Source: Ignavibacteriales bacterium (GTDB lineage Bacteria > Bacteroidota > Ignavibacteria > UBA10030). Taken from it: a stretch of 44,172 nt of DNA. The notes beneath the pieces are model-generated. The model ran no database searches and was not told the origin of the DNA. It saw only the letters and a program-made list of their open reading frames with translations. Positions 5,068-31,112 of the stretch are shown piece after piece. Position 1 is the first letter of the stretch; every line of letters begins with the position of its first letter. Made by a program: the position numbers and the translations under genes. The stretch covers positions 1 through 44,172 of the forward strand of contig JACPLA010000046.1 of NCBI GenBank assembly GCA_016186715.1. The letters are read 5' to 3'.

Positions 5068-7452
5068 GTGATCCTCTCCATCTCCAAGGCCGTCTGGATT
5101 TTCTTCTTTCTGTTTTCCCTTCCGGGAAGCACACGCGCCCAGAGCATAACACCGGTTCTGGAATTCCCTCATCCGTCTCTCGATGATCCCGATACGTATC
5201 GGGGGTATGTCACCCGCTTCTACCGCGATAGAAACGAAAATACCATGCAGGTGTACATCGATCAGAGTTCCGGCAGAACAGTTCACGTCTGGGGGAACGC
5301 CGCAAACGAAAGCATCGGGTTCACTGCCCGGGACCGAAATGGCAGACAGGAACCATTCGCATGGGAGGGCACCGGGGCCGAACTGGACACATCCAACGGA
5401 ATACGTCTCCTCCGCCACACCTTCCGCTCAACATCGCCACACGTTTCTGTCGGCCTCTTTCTTCTGGGATCGATGCGGAGGGAACGCGAGTATCAGTACC
5501 ATCAAAAACACCTCCTTGAGTTCGGAACAGAACGGAAATTCGTCGAACCCGAAATCGTTGAATTCCTCGACCTCATCCAACCGCTGTCGAAAGCCGACCG
5601 TAAGAGAATTCTTTCAACGCTTGAGGCAGAATCGATGGAAGAACTCCGCGGGCGAATTTATCCGACGGTGACGATCGACGAAACCGAATCGACGACGACC
5701 GTTCGTATTCTGAAGTATTCTCTCGACGGAAAAAACCGTCTCCTCCTTGAATTGAAAGCAGATCGGAGGGACGTCTCCGTCGATTACTCTCCGTCGATGA
5801 CGACCTTTCGTTCTCTCAGCGGAAAACCGGTTGCAATTCATGTAACGGTCGGAACGGATGCGCCATCGTTGACTCCGTTGCGGCGGAATGAACTTTTCAA
5901 TGATGAATTCCTGCGGTTCCTTGAAAAAGCAAAAACCGAACACGAGGAGTTGCAGGCTCTTGAAGAACGGCAACCGGGTTCTGTTCAGCTCCGGAGGTTG
6001 CAACGGTTTCAATGGCTGGACCGTCAGGTCCGGAGTTTCGAACTCCTGAGTTCGCGTGAGAAACTCATGGCCGGTTTGCCGAACTTCGCCACCTACTTCG
6101 GCCGCGACCTGATCATGGCCATACTCATGCTCGAGCCAATCCTTCGCCCCTCCATTCAGGAGCATGCCATTCTCGCGATTCTTCGCAAACTCTCCCCCCG
6201 GGGCGAAGTCAGTCATGAAGAAAGTCTCGGCGGACAGGCGATCCGGGAAAACGCGGCTGCTGCGAATGGGTTGCTCCGCCAAGCACTAAAAGCGGCCTCA
6301 CCGGATTCGGTTCAGTCTTTGATCGATCAAGTTGCCGTACTCACTGCAAACCTCCAGGAGACCCGGGAAGACTACAAGATGCTGGATGATGATTTCCAGC
6401 TCCCGGTTCTCGTCGGACGGTATCTTGCCAGGCCCGATGTTCCTCAGGAGAGGAAACGATCGTTTATGCGGCAAACGGTTGGAACGGAGAGTGTTCTCCG
6501 TTTACTTCTTCGGAACCTTGCCTATGTGACAGGGCAAACCGAGGCGTATGCGAAACAACCCACAGCTGAAAACCTTCTTGCATTTCCTTCCCGTGGAAGC
6601 GGCCGATGGCTATCCGGAAGCTGGCGGGACAGCGACGCCGGGTATGCCAACGGCCGTTATGCGATGGATATTAACGCCATCTGGGTCCCCGAGGCGCTTG
6701 AGGCCACCCGAACCATTCTGCATGTCCTTGCCTCTTTTGGAATCACCGCCGATTCTCTGGAGTCCGTTTCACCGGATCTTCGCACATCGATGCTCTCCAC
6801 CTACGCTCGCCATCCTTCACTGCTGGAAAAAGCAGTCGGCACGTGGCGCGTGGCCATCAACCACTTCATGGTGACGATTCAAGAATCCGACATCCGCACG
6901 CGGGTTCAATCGCGACTTGAATGGCTTCCCGCCGAAGAACGGCAATACTGGCAATCGGCGTTCGAACAAATACCAATTCCCCGGCAATTTCGATTCTTTG
7001 CCCTGGCTCTGGATTCAAACGGGATCGCGATCCCGATTCCCCACACAGACGGAGGAATGATGCTCTTTCTCAGGAATCTGGCGGGGAGGGATCTGCTTGA
7101 GGTGATTTTGGCCCCGGTTGTTACTCCTTATCCCCTGGGACTGTTTGTCGAAGGGCTTGGTCCTCTGGCAGCAAACGATGCCTACGCGGCAAAAAAAATC
7201 TGGGAAGAATTCCAAAATGATCGTTATCATTCACCCTACGTCGTGTGGGGACGGGAAGTAAACCTGTTCCTGCTCGGCCTCTGGAACCATCTGTCAGCGA
7301 CGGGGGGCAGCCCACGGATCAGGGACGCATGGGAAACGATTGCCGGAGCCACAGCAGCTTCGGGGCTGACACACAATGAATTGTGGACATACAGGATTCA
7401 GAACAACGCGCTTGTTCCTGCCCAATTCCTGTTATGGAAGAACAGACACTAA
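5068..7452 (+). CDS. secreted six-hairpin glycosidase-like protein (unknown family)
   Basis: The 794-aa protein starts at a GTG (AAGGAAG lies about 14 nt upstream) and has a signal peptide ending near STRAQS (about residue 25). The first third has no recognisable motif. The rest resembles the helical barrel enzymes of the glycogen-debranching and trehalase type: a FATYFGRDLIMAILMLEP segment (about residue 345), GEVSHEE (about 378), then SWRDSDAGYANGRYAMDINA (about 515) followed by IWVPEAL, and several helix pairs. I infer a (alpha/alpha)6 barrel acting in the periplasm or outside the cell, but cannot name the family or the catalytic acids with confidence. Position between a surface receptor and a sugar symporter, with trehalase downstream, supports a role in oligosaccharide breakdown. 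Confidence 0.6.
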   Translation: MILSISKAVWIFFFLFSLPGSTRAQSITPVLEFPHPSLDDPDTYRGYVTRFYRDRNENTMQVYIDQSSGRTVHVWGNAANESIGFTARDRNGRQEPFAWEGTGAELDTSNGIRLLRHTFRSTSPHVSVGLFLLGSMRREREYQYHQKHLLEFGTERKFVEPEIVEFLDLIQPLSKADRKRILSTLEAESMEELRGRIYPTVTIDETESTTTVRILKYSLDGKNRLLLELKADRRDVSVDYSPSMTTFRSLSGKPVAIHVTVGTDAPSLTPLRRNELFNDEFLRFLEKAKTEHEELQALEERQPGSVQLRRLQRFQWLDRQVRSFELLSSREKLMAGLPNFATYFGRDLIMAILMLEPILRPSIQEHAILAILRKLSPRGEVSHEESLGGQAIRENAAAANGLLRQALKAASPDSVQSLIDQVAVLTANLQETREDYKMLDDDFQLPVLVGRYLARPDVPQERKRSFMRQTVGTESVLRLLLRNLAYVTGQTEAYAKQPTAENLLAFPSRGSGRWLSGSWRDSDAGYANGRYAMDINAIWVPEALEATRTILHVLASFGITADSLESVSPDLRTSMLSTYARHPSLLEKAVGTWRVAINHFMVTIQESDIRTRVQSRLEWLPAEERQYWQSAFEQIPIPRQFRFFALALDSNGIAIPIPHTDGGMMLFLRNLAGRDLLEVILAPVVTPYPLGLFVEGLGPLAANDAYAAKKIWEEFQNDRYHSPYVVWGREVNLFLLGLWNHLSATGGSPRIRDAWETIAGATAASGLTHNELWTYRIQNNALVPAQFLLWKNRH

Positions 7453-7480
7453 TCCCCAACCCCACTGAGCGAGAACTTCC

Positions 7481-9088
7481 ATGAGCACTCTTCACATTGT
7501 CGACATTGTTCTCATTGTTCTGTATTTCTTTTTGATTTTTGGAATCGGCTATTGGGCATTCCGAAAACGAAAGAACGACAGCGCCGACTATTTCCTGGCC
7601 GGCCGCGATGTGGGATGGCTCGCCGTGGGCGCCAGCCTTTTCGCCTCGAACATCGGGAGCGAGCATCTTGTGGGGCTCGCGGGGTCCGGCGCGGCGGGAG
7701 GACTTGCCGTCGGACATTTTGAGTGGCTCGCGACTCTCATTCTTCTCCTCCTCGGCTGGCTCTTCGTTCCTTTTTACATGCGAAGCTCTGTGTTCACGAT
7801 GCCGGAGTTCCTGGAGCGACGGTATAGCCCCGCGGCGCGTTGGTACCTTGCAACGATCTCGGTAATCGGATACGTGCTGACAAAGATCAGCGTGACGTTG
7901 TTTGCCGGCGGCATCGTCATCCGGGAGCTGACCGGTCTCGACATGTTTGAAAGCGCGGTCATCCTTGTTGTTCTGACCGGCATGTATACCGTCGCAGGCG
8001 GACTGAGAGCTGTGGTCTATACGGAGGTGGTGCAAACGTTTGTTCTCATCGGCGGATGTCTCGCCCTGACCGTTGCCGGATTAATCGAAGTCGGCGGGTT
8101 GCAGGGCCTTCAGGAACGCGTTCCCGCAGACTTCTTCTCGATGTGGAAATCCGTCGACCATCCGGACTTCCCCTGGACCGGCATTGTGTTCGGAGCGCCG
8201 ATTCTGGGAATCTGGTACTGGTGCACGGACCAGTATATTGTGCAACGTGTTCTTGCCGCACGCGGGGTCGACGAAGCCCGCACCGGCACCGTGTTCGCCG
8301 GTTTCCTCAAGATCCTTCCGGTCTTTATCTTCGTCTTCCCCGGTGTGATTGCCGCCGCACTGTTTTCCGACATTGCAGCCTCCTCTGACCGCGCGTTCCC
8401 TGTGATGGTGACTCGCCTCCTCCCGATCGGGCTTAAGGGACTTGTGATCGCGGGATTGCTTGCCGCCCTCATGAGCTCCCTCAGCTCAGTTTTCAACTCC
8501 TGTTCCACTCTCATCACGTGGGACTTCTACAAAAAACTCAAACCCGACGTCAGTGAGCAGCGGCTGGTGATTGTGGGCCGGATTGCAACAGGCGTCCTCG
8601 TTGTCCTCGGCCTGCTCTGGATTCCTTTCATGAAATACATCTCATCCCAGCTGTACATCTATCTGCAGAGCGTCCAGGCCTACATTGCGCCCCCCATTGC
8701 AGCGTGCTTCCTGCTGGGATTGTTCATCAAACGGCTGAACGGGCCGGGAGCGATTGCGTCCCTGCTGACGGGGTTTGTGTTCGGCGCTCTTCGGCTTGTT
8801 CTGGAGCTGATGAACGGAACCGACAAGACCGGGCTTGCTTCGGGGACCTTATGGGAATGGATTGCGGAAATTAATTTCCTGCATTTTGCCGTGTTTCTTT
8901 TCGTTCTTTGCACGGCCGTCCTCATCGGCGTCAGCTTCTTAACAAAAGCTCCGTCCGATGAAAAGATCAAAGGAATCACATTCGCTACTGTCGAACGCGA
9001 AGAGCCGGGAAAACGGGAAGGGGTGAATCGGATCCTTTCCTTTGTGCTTGCCCTGACGATCGGGATTCTCTGGTATGTGTTTGCTTGA
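7481..9088 (+). CDS. sodium:solute symporter of the SGLT (SSS) family
   Basis: The 535-aa protein has about 13-14 hydrophobic segments and motifs typical of sodium/glucose cotransporters: ADYFLAGRDVGWLAVGASLF and ASNIGSEHLVGLAGSGAAGG in the first two helices, YTVAGGLRAVVYTEVVQTF in the helix 5 region and GLLAALMSSLSSVFNSCSTL in helix 8. The family imports sugars, inositol or related solutes across the inner membrane with Na+. The gene begins 28 nt after the glycosidase-like gene and is followed by a small membrane protein and a trehalase, so glucose or another released sugar is the likely cargo. The ribosome site is weak (GAGCGAGAA). Confidence 0.92.
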   Translation: MSTLHIVDIVLIVLYFFLIFGIGYWAFRKRKNDSADYFLAGRDVGWLAVGASLFASNIGSEHLVGLAGSGAAGGLAVGHFEWLATLILLLLGWLFVPFYMRSSVFTMPEFLERRYSPAARWYLATISVIGYVLTKISVTLFAGGIVIRELTGLDMFESAVILVVLTGMYTVAGGLRAVVYTEVVQTFVLIGGCLALTVAGLIEVGGLQGLQERVPADFFSMWKSVDHPDFPWTGIVFGAPILGIWYWCTDQYIVQRVLAARGVDEARTGTVFAGFLKILPVFIFVFPGVIAAALFSDIAASSDRAFPVMVTRLLPIGLKGLVIAGLLAALMSSLSSVFNSCSTLITWDFYKKLKPDVSEQRLVIVGRIATGVLVVLGLLWIPFMKYISSQLYIYLQSVQAYIAPPIAACFLLGLFIKRLNGPGAIASLLTGFVFGALRLVLELMNGTDKTGLASGTLWEWIAEINFLHFAVFLFVLCTAVLIGVSFLTKAPSDEKIKGITFATVEREEPGKREGVNRILSFVLALTIGILWYVFA

Positions 9089-26791: not shown

Positions 26792-27338
26792 TTAGACTGC
26801 AATCCGCCCCTCAAGAGCTCGTGAGAGTGTGGCCTCATCGGCATATTCGAGATCTGACCCCACAGGCAATCCCCGCGCAATACGGGTAACCTTCGCCCCC
26901 AATGGCTTGAGGAGCTTAGACAAATACAGGGTCGTCGCTTCTCCCTCGACGTTCGGATTCATCGCCAGTATAACTTCCTCAACACTTGAGCCTGTAAGTC
27001 GGCTCAAGAGCTCTTTGACCCGCAGCTCCTCGGGTCCGATCCCATCAAGGGGCGAAAGCGCTCCTCCGAGGACATGATACAACCCCTTGAATTCATTGGT
27101 TTTTTCAAGCGCGAGCACGTCACTGGGCTCTTCGACCACATTCGGTAATATTCGAACAGACGGAGCAGTAGCGCACCTTGTCCTTTGCATTCACCAGGGC
27201 CTTTGCCAGCGACACAACTTCTTCCCTGTTCATCTTGAGAACGTACAAAGCCAAACGGTGTGCGGTTTTTCTCCCTATGCCCGGAAGTTGTGCAAAATGC
27301 TCGGCCAGTTGCTCAACGGATTCAGCAGTGTAAGTCAT
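26792..27338 (-). pseudogene. recR: recR with a deletion and frame break in the zinc finger
   Basis: Two overlapping frames together spell RecR. The first (from 27338) gives the N-terminal helix-hairpin-helix (LAEHFAQLPGIGRKTAHRLA) and the first half of the Cys4 zinc finger ([10 protein letters not shown]), then leaves frame and stops at 27120. The second carries [17 protein letters not shown], the Toprim domain ([33 protein letters not shown]) and the normal C-terminus. Normal RecR has about 18 residues between those blocks, including the second CxxC and a conserved RD...IC; here they are absent and the frames differ. The joined product would be about 181 aa against about 200. Either the gene is inactive in this genome or the assembly lost about 53 nt. 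It lies next to ybaB, as usual. Confidence 0.85.
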
Positions 27339-27377: not shown

Positions 27378-27716
27378 TTAAAGGCCTGGGAGGTTCATGC
27401 CGGGAGGGATGATTCCTTGTGTGACCTTCTGCATTTCCTGTTGTGCCATGGCGCTTGCCTGCTCCAGCGCCTTGTTTGCGGCCGCCACAACAAGATCCTC
27501 CAGGATGTCCTTCTCCTCCGGCTTGACGACTTCCTGCTCGATTTCAATTTTCACAATCTGCTGTTTGCCGTTCGCCGTGACCTTCACCATTCCCCCGCCC
27601 GCATCCGCCGTCACGGTCTTCTGTTCCAACTCCGCCTGAACCTTTGCCATCCGTTCCTGCATTTCTTGGATTTGCTTCATCATCGCCTGCATGTTTGGCA
27701 TTCCACCTTTCAGCAT
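27378..27716 (-). CDS. ybaB: YbaB/EbfC nucleoid-associated protein
   Basis: The 112-aa protein has the YbaB/EbfC pattern: a methionine-rich start ([20 protein letters not shown]), a long helix, [20 protein letters not shown] strands and [15 protein letters not shown]. Dimers bind DNA loosely. ATG 27716 has AAGGAG 7 nt upstream. It precedes recR by 39 nt as in most bacteria, but the usual upstream dnaX is missing; the tRNA-Asn unit lies divergently upstream instead. Confidence 0.93.
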
Positions 27717-27886
27717 CACGCTCTCCTTGCTGGTTTTCTGTTCGGGATTCAATATACTTCGAATTGGAGGGAGAATCAACGTATCGCCGCAGTGTTCCCT
27801 CAGTTCTGGAGCAGACCTTTCCCCCTTTTTTCGCGCCTCATCATAGCGATTTCCGTCGGCAGTCGCGATTATTTTGATTCTCCTGA

Positions 27887-27938
27887 GCCGACGGATTTGA
27901 GCCTGAGGCTCATTCGCCTTGGGCGAACATCCGACGGC
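27887..27938. repeat. miniature cloverleaf palindrome, copy A
   Basis: An outer stem GCCGACGGAT (27887-27896) with ATCCGACGGC (27929-27938), one mismatch, encloses two perfect hairpins with 3-nt loops: TGAGCC-TGA-GGCTCA (27898-27912) and TTCGCC-TTG-GGCGAA (27913-27927). Only two bases remain unpaired outside loops. It lies in the non-coding stretch (27717-27995) upstream of ybaB, where nothing else was recognised. Copies with the same shape are at 34381-34463, 34469-34533 and 44114-44154. Confidence 0.8.
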
Positions 27939-27995
27939 ATGATCGCCGGCAGATACGGCAAAGCCAGACTTCCATGACCACTGCATTACCGTTTA

Positions 27996-28067: not shown

Positions 28068-28173
28068 ATTCCGCGATAGCTCAATGGTAGAGTCCCGCCA
28101 CCTCTCGACAAGCTCAAAGGCGGGATTTCGACCCGCCACCTTCGGTGTCGGGTCTCAACATGCGGCAATCGCA
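28068..28173 (+). pseudogene. broken duplicate of the tRNA-Asn 5' exon with a 66-nt double-hairpin insert
   Basis: 28068-28092 repeats, base for base, the first 25 nt found at the start of the intact tRNA-Asn gene. Then 66 nt (28093-28158) intervene, after which CATGCGGC and AATCGCA (28159-28173) continue the homology into the start of the intron, lacking the six bases TGTGAC that span the 5' splice site. The insert is two hairpins: TCCCGCC/GGCGGGA (28093-28125) and GACCCG/CGGGTC (28130-28154) around CACCTTCGGTG. It contains CTCGACAAGCTC. Confidence 0.7.
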
Positions 28174-28190
28174 CCGTTCTTTTCAGATAT

Positions 28191-28533
28191 TCCGCGATAG
28201 CTCAATGGTAGAGCATGCGGCTGTGACAATCGCAGCTTTCCCGAGCAATCGGGATTGAAAAACCGGGTGAATTCAGGGAAGCCTAATCTCCGCCCAGCGG
28301 AGGATGGTAATCCTGAGCGAAGTCCCGCGAAGAGGAACGCTTTTAGTAGCGGGAAACGTGCAGAGACTAGAGGATGAGGATCTCACCAATAAGCCTCACA
28401 AGCGCCCGGCCCCTGAGCGAGTGCCACGTTTTTTGTGGCACGAGTCGTAGGGTGATGAGATAGTCCGGACCACAGCGAAAGTTGTGGAACATCCGTAACC
28501 GCAGGGTTGTAGGTTCGAGTCCTACTCGCGGAG
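28191..28533 (+). tRNA. tRNA-Asn(GUU), interrupted by a group I intron
   Basis: Exon 1 is 28191-28224 and exon 2 is 28496-28533. Joined, they give a 72-nt tRNA: acceptor TCCGCGA/TCGCGGA, D-arm GCTC/GAGC, anticodon stem TGCGG/CCGCA, loop CTGTTAA (anticodon GTT, Asn), T-arm GTAGG-TTCGAGT-CCTAC, discriminator G. CCA is not encoded (CCG follows). The intron separates U35 from U36. Reading straight through exon 1 (CTGTGAC) would falsely suggest a GUG anticodon. Promoter at 27996 and terminator at 28545 frame the unit. Confidence 0.95.
28225..28495 (+). ncRNA. self-splicing group I intron inside the tRNA-Asn anticodon
   Basis: The 271-nt intron has the full catalytic core. P1: exon end GGCTGT pairs with the guide GCAGCT (28232-28237), with the required U-G pair at the 5' splice site. 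P2 is CCCGA-GCAA-TCGGG (28240-28253). Element P (AATTCAGGGAAGCC, 28270-28283) and Q (GGTAATCCTGAGC, 28306-28318) form P4 by TCAGG/CCTGA. P5 is CTCCGC/GCGGAG (28288-28302), P6 region CCCGC/GCGGG (28324-28353). Element R (GCAGAGACTAGA) and S (GATAGTCC) form P7 by GACTA (28365-28369) with TAGTC (28461-28465). P8-region hairpin GTGCCAC/GTGGCAC (28421-28441). P9 closes with a GAAA tetraloop (28470-28487). The last base is G28495. The layout resembles the IC3 introns of bacterial tRNAs. There is no room for an endonuclease gene. Confidence 0.93.
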
Positions 28534-28544
28534 CCGTTCGACTC

Positions 28545-28584
28545 ACCCGTTCCCCCAGGCTTGTGCAAGGGGGAACGGGTTTTT
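28545..28584 (+). terminator. rho-independent terminator of the tRNA-Asn unit
   Basis: ACCCGTTCCCCC (28545-28556) pairs with GGGGGAACGGGT (28569-28580), a 12-bp stem with a 12-nt loop, followed by a run of Ts. It ends the tRNA transcript 12 nt after exon 2. Confidence 0.9.
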
Positions 28585-30483: not shown

Positions 30484-30533
30484 TAGAAGTCCGACATTTA
30501 CCGGGAAACTCCATTGCAAATGTCGGACTTCTA
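30484..30533. repeat. REP pair at the 3' end of the RAYT gene
   Basis: TAGAAGTCCGACATTT (30484-30499) and AAATGTCGGACTTCTA (30518-30533) form a perfect 16-bp inverted repeat around an 18-nt loop. The final CTA doubles as the TAG stop codon of the transposase gene on the minus strand. Confidence 0.9.
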
Positions 30534-31112
30534 CCACCCCAGAAGCCTTCTTTCAAGCGCCTGGATTTCCCGTTTCCTTGTTGCGTATTGATTCAAATAC
30601 CTGCGGTAGCTGGCCGCGCTGCCATAAAACTGTTTCCGAATTTCATTCCCCGCTCTATCTTGACACCAAACGTTGCAATCGGAAAACTCCCACTCCTCAG
30701 GATGTTGAACAAGGCGGGCGATGACCGGATTCAGATGTATATACGGAATGACCTCAATGAGGTGCTTGTCATCTCGAATCAACTTTGCCTGGTAGTCATC
30801 CTCGAAGAGATGCCCACTGGTCTTATGCCACGAATGAAACGACTTTACATATGATGTGGAGAACGATCTCATAACATTGGAAAAATCGAACTTCTGGAGG
30901 ATGAGGATGAGAAGATGAAAGTGATTGGGCATCAGACAGTATGCAACCAATCGTATTCTTTCTTCAGAAAAATACTTTCTGAATGTCCGAAGAAAGAATC
31001 TGAAATTTTCGCGGGTCCGAAAGATAGACTGCTTGTTATTGCCGCGATTGTAAAGGTGGTAGAAATGATCTGGAAGGATCTCAACGGATCGCGTCCCCAT
31101 GGCGGCCCCCAT
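30531..31112 (-). CDS. REP-associated tyrosine transposase (RAYT), Y1_Tnp family
   Basis: The 193-aa protein has the HUH nuclease signature HFH at residues 64-66 (CLMPNHFHLLILI), the N-terminal strand EILPDHFYHLYNRGNNK and a catalytic tyrosine candidate at Y88 (SFSTSYVKSFH), with GHLFEDDYQAKLI after it. RAYTs cut and join single-stranded REP hairpins. The gene appears intact and is flanked on both sides by palindromes of one family (30484-30533, 31123-31261), so it is likely to be, or to have been, active on them. The start is either codon 1 (31112) or M5 (31100). Confidence 0.93.
   Translation of the reverse strand: MGAAMGTRSVEILPDHFYHLYNRGNNKQSIFRTRENFRFFLRTFRKYFSEERIRLVAYCLMPNHFHLLILILQKFDFSNVMRSFSTSYVKSFHSWHKTSGHLFEDDYQAKLIRDDKHLIEVIPYIHLNPVIARLVQHPEEWEFSDCNVWCQDRAGNEIRKQFYGSAASYRRYLNQYATRKREIQALERRLLGW

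Follow-up and report, generated by a model that had tools for sequence, protein, structure and literature searches.

The window analysed here is a 44,172-nucleotide stretch of DNA from an Ignavibacteriales bacterium, on contig C141 of a 2.39-Mb genome assembly (G000) that comprises 145 contigs and is 94.57% complete. Positions 28191-28533 hold a tRNA-Asn(GUU) gene in which a group I intron of 271 nt separates U35 from U36. The parts of this gene, the helices of the intron, and the neighbouring genes are listed in Table 1.

Table 1. Features of the split tRNA-Asn gene and its surroundings, in window coordinates. A1 is the alignment of 38 distinct introns described in the text; "changed" pairs differ on both sides within A1.
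Feature	Position	Strand	Remarks
RecR-like gene	26792-27190		Upstream of tRNA-Asn
YbaB-like gene	27378-27986		Upstream of tRNA-Asn
5' exon of tRNA-Asn(GUU)	28191..28224	+	Acceptor 5' strand, D arm, anticodon stem 5' strand, loop to U35; equals the intact gene of 15 related genomes
P1	28220..28236	+	GCUGU 28220-28224 (exon) with internal guide GCAGC 28232-28236, U-G at the splice site; 4 pairs nearest the splice site the same in 38/38, 5th mismatched in L032
Group I intron (271 nt) at U35|U36	28225..28495	+	RF00028 81.3 bits; same junction in 38/38 distinct family members
P2	28239..28254	+	UCCCGA/UCGGGA with GNRA-type tetraloop (GCAA); 6/6 pairs changed, 100% of cells paired; GNRA-type loop in 38/38
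P3	28263..28409	+	28263-28269 with 28403-28409; 3/7 pairs changed, 99.6% of cells paired
P4	28273..28316	+	28273-28278 with 28311-28316; invariant in 38/38
P6a stem	28323..28354	+	28323-28328 with 28349-28354; 6/6 pairs changed
P7	28365..28465	+	GACUA 28365-28369 with UAGUC 28461-28465, P3/P7 pseudoknot; never varies
P8 hairpin	28411..28452	+	Length varies among relatives; 78.9% of cells paired, window one column out of register in A1
P9.0	28467..28494	+	GGA 28467-28469 with UCC 28492-28494, adjoining terminal G 28495; 3/3 pairs changed, 87.7% of cells paired
P9	28470..28487	+	GAAA cap; 6/7 pairs changed; GAAA loop in 36/38
3' exon of tRNA-Asn	28496..28533	+	U36, A37, A38, anticodon stem 3' strand, T arm, acceptor 3' strand, G73; CCA not encoded
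Probable intrinsic terminator after the tRNA	28547..28584	+	G+C hairpin plus T run, by eye
IS200-like transposase	30531-31112		Downstream of tRNA-Asn

A preliminary description of this stretch had joined the two exons into a perfect tRNA-Asn and called the insert a group I intron. The joined exons (72 nt) proved to be letter for letter the intact tRNA-Asn found at 20 loci fetched from 15 related genomes, which fixes the U35|U36 junction independently of any model. One of the 15, G047, has a split copy as well. ARAGORN called the joined exons tRNA-Asn(gtt) and, with introns allowed, called the unspliced gene tRNA-Asn(gtt) with a 271-nt intron. When run without introns over the whole window, the only tRNA it reported was a Met gene at the edge, with nothing at 28191-28533. 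The group I identity was borne out by a match to the full length of Rfam model RF00028 (model positions 1-253; window 28215-28487) at 81.3 bits against a gathering score of 50 (E 3e-19), and by the covariation across 38 distinct introns presented below.

The same tools behaved unevenly on the wider family. All 38 distinct unspliced genes were missed by ARAGORN without introns; with introns it often returned tRNA-Thr by way of other junctions, and returned nothing for 8 of 53 sequences. We instead placed the junctions by the rule of a U before the intron and a G at its end, together with the intact genes of relatives. Both letters are present in 38 of 38 distinct members, and every one of the 38 joined exon pairs was then called tRNA-Asn(gtt) by ARAGORN. 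Intron sizes start at 197 nt, with 19 of the 38 below 300 nt.

We evaluated the fold of the family in an alignment of the 38 distinct introns (A1) that runs from the guide sequence to the 3' exon, counting the 52 pairs of a hand-drawn structure. Cells were paired in 95.9% of cases, compared with 82.0% in shuffled alignments, and 30 pairs showed changes on both sides, compared with 22.6. Changes on both sides were counted in 308 cells, whereas 500 shuffles averaged 102.1, all of them below 308, and slid controls reached at most 67, with the qualification that a structure drawn from A1's own sequences is favoured in the slid control and that kinship can push such counts above shuffles. Covariation was found in P2, P3, P6a, P9.0, and P9, and the P3-P9 core with its P3/P7 pseudoknot is present. 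The core helices P4, P5, P6, and P7 never vary in A1 and so give no covariation evidence, neither for nor against the fold. The weakest helices were P8 (78.9% of cells paired) and P7.1 (84.0%), partly as an effect of the alignment; P7.1 is a hairpin found in most members and absent from loci L032 and L070. Across phyla, the catalytic core is nearly invariant. The individual elements that the preliminary description had named also held up in A1: P1 with its U-G pair at the splice site and the terminal G were kept in 38 of 38 distinct members, the GACTA/TAGTC pairing of P7 was invariant wherever both letters were present in the 38 rows, and the stem beneath the GAAA tetraloop of P9 covaried, with the loop itself being GAAA in 36 of 38.

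Two other readings of parts of the window intron were considered and rejected. P8 (28411-28452) was tried as a copy of a dispersed REP-like palindrome, and its pattern had 2 near matches genome-wide, no more than a reversed control. The P1/P2 region was tried as a coding fossil of the C-terminus of an HNH protein, and its letters are accounted for by the P2 pairing and the GNRA loop. Separately, GC-rich palindromes of the CCCTTCGACTCG...CGCTCAGGG type were seen by eye in P8 of L012 and in the P1 loop of L020, and are perhaps small repeats that landed in tolerant loops.

The conserved fold bears directly on how the insert would leave the transcript. Removal by proteins, as for archaeal and eukaryotic tRNA introns, with the group I fold being a relic, would suit the position of the insert, since tRNA introns spliced by proteins likewise interrupt the anticodon loop. 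This does not sit well with a group I fold that covaries and accounts for the insert, or with a P1 U-G pair and terminal G kept in 38 of 38 members, and no tRNA splicing endonuclease is known from bacteria. We consider the chance of protein-mediated removal close to negligible.

We also searched for additional copies of the gene. RF00028 matched only once across the G000 genome, and DNA searches of this assembly with the exons and with the intact tRNA found no second tRNA-Asn. The preliminary statement that the window holds no unsplit Asn tRNA was thus right and extends to the assembled genome. The other exon matches in G000 were a 23-nt copy of the gene start (28070-28092) and a 77% partial match elsewhere. 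In the exon DNA search, the intron was present in 13 of 61 genomes (G000 and 12 relatives). A sample of the class gave at least 13 of 294 genomes, which is a lower bound because two candidate places were scored per genome. The union of both searches comprises 16 intron-bearing assemblies of the Ignavibacteria group. We searched these 16 with the intact tRNA, scoring every candidate, and found a full-length copy in G047 only and none in the other 15, G000 included. G047 thus has a split and an intact tRNA-Asn; the contig of its split copy ends inside an enlarged P8, and the intron copy of G279 is also cut by a contig end. A tRNA-Asn query against 28 further genomes, taken from the named loci, returned no near-identical full-length match. 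The best longer matches in 27 of them were Lys, Met, Arg, Thr, or Trp genes, and the 28th (G328) had the two exon halves only.

As MAGs, most of these assemblies are incomplete and may lack a second tRNA-Asn that the cell has. The split gene might then be dead, blocked by its intron, with the cell using another tRNA-Asn that is absent from the assembly. Such a state is compatible with the completeness and contig number of G000 and with the two gene forms in G047. It would, however, have to be reconciled with exons that are unchanged relative to the intact gene, with the near invariance of the catalytic core across phyla, and with intact copies going unfound both in 15 of the 16 intron-bearing assemblies and in the 28 further genomes, where the longer matches in 27 were other tRNAs. 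We therefore regard a dead gene as highly improbable.

Partial copies of tRNA-Asn were a recurrent side observation. Upstream of the split gene, the copy of its start, read here as 25 nt (28068-28092), continues into a structured element (28068-28176; z -3.6). Its hairpin letters change in step, by eye, among the relatives G007 and G008 and the three tandem copies of G040, and the element resembles a 5' half of tRNA-Asn that has been rebuilt and conserved. The intron-less loci L023, L024, L025, and L028 have partial tRNA-Asn copies beside an intact gene, in which a short hairpin replaces the 3' anticodon stem. A GIY-YIG-like frame lies near or between the tRNA-Asn copies of L024, L025, and L028, with the L025 frame matching PF01541 (1.6e-17). 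The tRNA-Asn gene may thus be the target of another type of nuclease as well.

The intron of the window is not a singleton: the preliminary description had proposed its site as one to look for in relatives, and the intron was found there and well beyond. An exact P3-P6 core pattern identified 40 loci in 84,980 species genomes, a lower bound that is biased towards introns like the starting ones because the pattern was exact. Both tRNA-Asn exons with the same junction were recognized in 33 of these (32 by script and L068 by eye). Six were partial, with the 5' exon only (L044, L059, L067), the 3' exon only (L055, L063), or the 5' exon followed by the beginning of the 3' exon (L069), and all six are cut by locus or contig ends. 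The remaining locus, L033, was counted apart from the junction tally; its contig is as long as that of L010, a locus with both exons. No family intron was seen in a gene other than tRNA-Asn among the 40 loci, which overlap in part, as several come from genomes also met in the searches of relatives and L054 and L069 belong to one assembly. By record title, eight phylum-level groups are represented: Ignavibacteriae/Bacteroidetes, Nitrospirae, Deltaproteobacteria with Desulfobacteraceae, Planctomycetes, Actinomycetota, Omnitrophota, Auribacterota, and Rokubacteria. The record title of L030 reads Klebsiella pneumoniae; as its intron groups with a Deltaproteobacteria row in the intron tree, we regard it as a mislabelled MAG. 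That tree is weakly resolved, with 9 of 35 inner branches starred, and was not used to propose particular transfers; one starred pair joins L036 (Actinomycetota) and the viral locus L070 on long branches. The plasmid collection gave no match.

Within the Nitrospiraceae, a match across the intron was found in at least 19 of 147 sampled genomes (the query's own included), again a lower bound because four candidate places were scored per genome. All 12 carriers that we fetched have the same junction, and some of the remaining genomes show the two exon matches side by side, as in an intact gene. This distribution bears on a possible regulatory role. Group I splicing needs guanosine, and the split gene is the sole tRNA-Asn found in G000, so splicing could be imagined as a regulatory step that couples the supply of tRNA-Asn to the guanosine or GTP level, rather than a neutral burden. 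The patchy presence in the class and in the Nitrospiraceae is instead what a mobile element would produce, and we judge a regulatory role to be very improbable.

The longer members of the family point to a possible means of mobility. In introns of 540-633 nt, the P1 loop, from the 5' splice site to the guide, holds an HNH frame. An uninterrupted frame with a Cys pair and the HH and CANCHRE pieces is present in 11 of the 38 introns (L010, L012, L013, L014, L017, L034, L042, L050, L061, L064, and L066, the last with only 84 codons). L015 has an HNH frame that lacks the Cys pair, and the frame of L077 contains a stop. No such frame was found in the other 25 introns, among them that of the window, which does not encode the endonuclease of a mobile intron. 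The two intron HNH proteins that we examined had no match in Pfam and matched HNH families in PHROGs (E 6.8e-28 and 6.6e-30). The best match of one intron HNH among solved structures was weak, to a maturase reverse transcriptase (E 0.0038). The HNH tree is weakly resolved with unsettled bootstrap, and the intron HNHs do not form one clade in it (3 changes).

Viral contigs contain both the intron and free-standing relatives of its nuclease. L070, a viral contig of 469,617 bp, includes a tRNA cluster, and its tRNA-Asn gene is interrupted at the same site by an intron of 197 nt; L190, a viral contig of 22,353 bp, has an HNH-bearing intron at the tRNA-Asn site (junction by eye). A search of viral contigs with an HNH query gave 270 loci, the best 80 of which were taken; 60 of these are distinct over the match, and their identity to the intron HNH reaches 68%. 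Among these best 80 of 270, a tRNA gene lies within 150 nt downstream in 37 of the 60 distinct loci and is tRNA-Asn in 25 of the 37, although these neighbours are not independent, since 17 of the 25 fall in one 18-row clade of the HNH tree. The eight outside that clade (L192, L193, L196, L198, L202, L209, L242, and L246) have gaps of -3 to 76 nt, with the tRNA of L242 on the strand opposite to the HNH frame. Another tRNA is next in 12 of the 37, and no tRNA gene follows in 23 of the 60. The HNH family is therefore associated with tRNA genes in general, most often with tRNA-Asn. By eye, the HNH reading frames of L202 and L233 extend into tRNA-Asn. By a coarse test, the group I core motif was absent from 79 of the 80 fetched loci, the exception being L190.

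Group I introns were also encountered in other viral tRNA genes. Among the 71 loci of a core scan, L070 included, nine group I introns of viral contigs lie inside tRNA genes other than tRNA-Asn (L100, L104, L106, L144, L150, L140, L110, L152, and L165), the hosts being tRNA-Leu(UAA) in five, tRNA-Thr(UGU) in one, and a CAU-anticodon tRNA in three (by eye; ARAGORN says Gln). Two large Klebsiella phages, L166 (OU509535.1) and L167 (LC768485.1, Klebsiella phage phiKp_21), have a CAU-anticodon tRNA (by eye) with a group I intron scoring 89.9 and 103.7 bits, respectively; the former record has no annotation at all and the latter none at the place of the intron. Two partial matches in the phage collection were tried as tRNA-Asn and rejected, both being CAU-anticodon tRNAs by eye. 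Beside the tRNA-Asn intron of L070, positions 1541-1818 hold a tRNA-Leu-like gene (by eye); its insert of about 200 nt gave no match in Rfam. The viral contig L071 has two group I introns (6014-6254 and 7234-7494), the first of which has the same core and no tRNA seen around it.

Taken as a whole, the locus is very probably an ordinary self-splicing group I intron that restores the GUU anticodon, belonging to a family most likely spread by HNH-driven homing with some loss of the nuclease. In the precursor, the internal guide GCAGC would pair with the GCUGU end of the 5' exon to form P1. An external guanosine bound in P7 would attack after U35, which is wobble-paired to G, and the freed U35 would then attack after the last intron G (28495), joining U35 to U36. 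Ordinary tRNA end processing and CCA addition would follow. The window intron has no endonuclease gene, whereas relatives have an HNH frame in the P1 loop; most likely, therefore, the family spread by invading tRNA-Asn alleles without an intron, and the nuclease was lost afterwards in part of it. Homing and nuclease decay would fit the patchy occurrence at a single exact site, the varied condition of the HNH frames, and the empty intact sites.

A broader reading would join the bacterial and viral observations, and we offer it tentatively, as a possibility just short of probable. In a dedicated parasite lineage of tRNA-Asn, a single type of group I intron, inserted at U35|U36, would be coupled to an HNH nuclease recognizing tRNA-Asn genes. 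Phages would have moved it among bacterial phyla, with either the intron or, next to tRNA-Asn, the free-standing nuclease in their tRNA clusters. The free-standing phage form would be either the source or the descendant of the intron-borne form, and the split genes would be missed by intron-blind tRNA finders. One nuclease family may be tied to one tRNA across bacteria and phages. In practical terms, genomes with the tRNA-Asn intron look short of an essential tRNA. The family adds one tRNA host and one site to the short list of bacterial tRNA introns, and as a set of compact ribozymes at one site in many phyla it offers a testbed for homing, nuclease loss, and persistence in an indispensable gene.

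Bacterial group I introns are known in tRNA-Leu(UAA), tRNA-Ile(CAU), tRNA-Arg(CCU), and tRNA-fMet. In the open-access literature, to which our claim of absence is limited, we found no report of a bacterial tRNA-Asn group I intron, and reports elsewhere are possible; this fits the earlier suggestion that host and site may be new. The intron is best classed as ordinary group I ribozyme machinery in a host, tRNA-Asn(GUU), and at a site, 35|36, that we found unreported. Like the bacterial tRNA introns of tRNA-Ile(CAU) (Azoarcus and others) and tRNA-Arg(CCU), it is a small ribozyme in the anticodon loop with a U-G splice-site pair and a terminal G. The family differs from them in its host and site, in the P7.1 hairpin of most members, and in the HNH frame in the P1 loop of 11 of 38. 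Its GNRA-type P2 loop (38/38) and GAAA P9 loop (36/38) presumably resemble the Azoarcus type, and the family may resemble subgroup IC3 (the tRNA-Leu/Ile type).

Published surveys give further points of comparison. The tRNAscan-SE 2.0 paper describes fMet and Ile2 genes missed through group I introns (PMC8450103), and an archaeal survey places 39 of 39 group I introns in rRNA (PMC6125680). Cyanobacterial tRNA-Arg, Gly, and Lys inserts of 22-49 nt are termed group I introns in one account (PMC5733544); in our view they are too short for ribozymes. A 2014 review of bacterial group I introns has all phage introns then observed in protein-coding genes, with none in a phage tRNA gene (PMC3984707). 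The free-standing phage HNHs in tRNA clusters (PHROG 2255 and 3106) are sequence relatives of the intron HNH and often lie just upstream of tRNA-Asn, nearly always at loci without the core motif. The tmRNA introns occur in 21 phyla at four T-loop sites and are much commoner than thought; 36 of 883 have a homing gene, and the 23 of these that were typed are LAGLIDADG (PMC11915505). They share with the tRNA-Asn introns their location in tRNA-like genes, but differ in the gene and loop they occupy and in having LAGLIDADG nucleases where 11 of the 38 tRNA-Asn introns have HNH.
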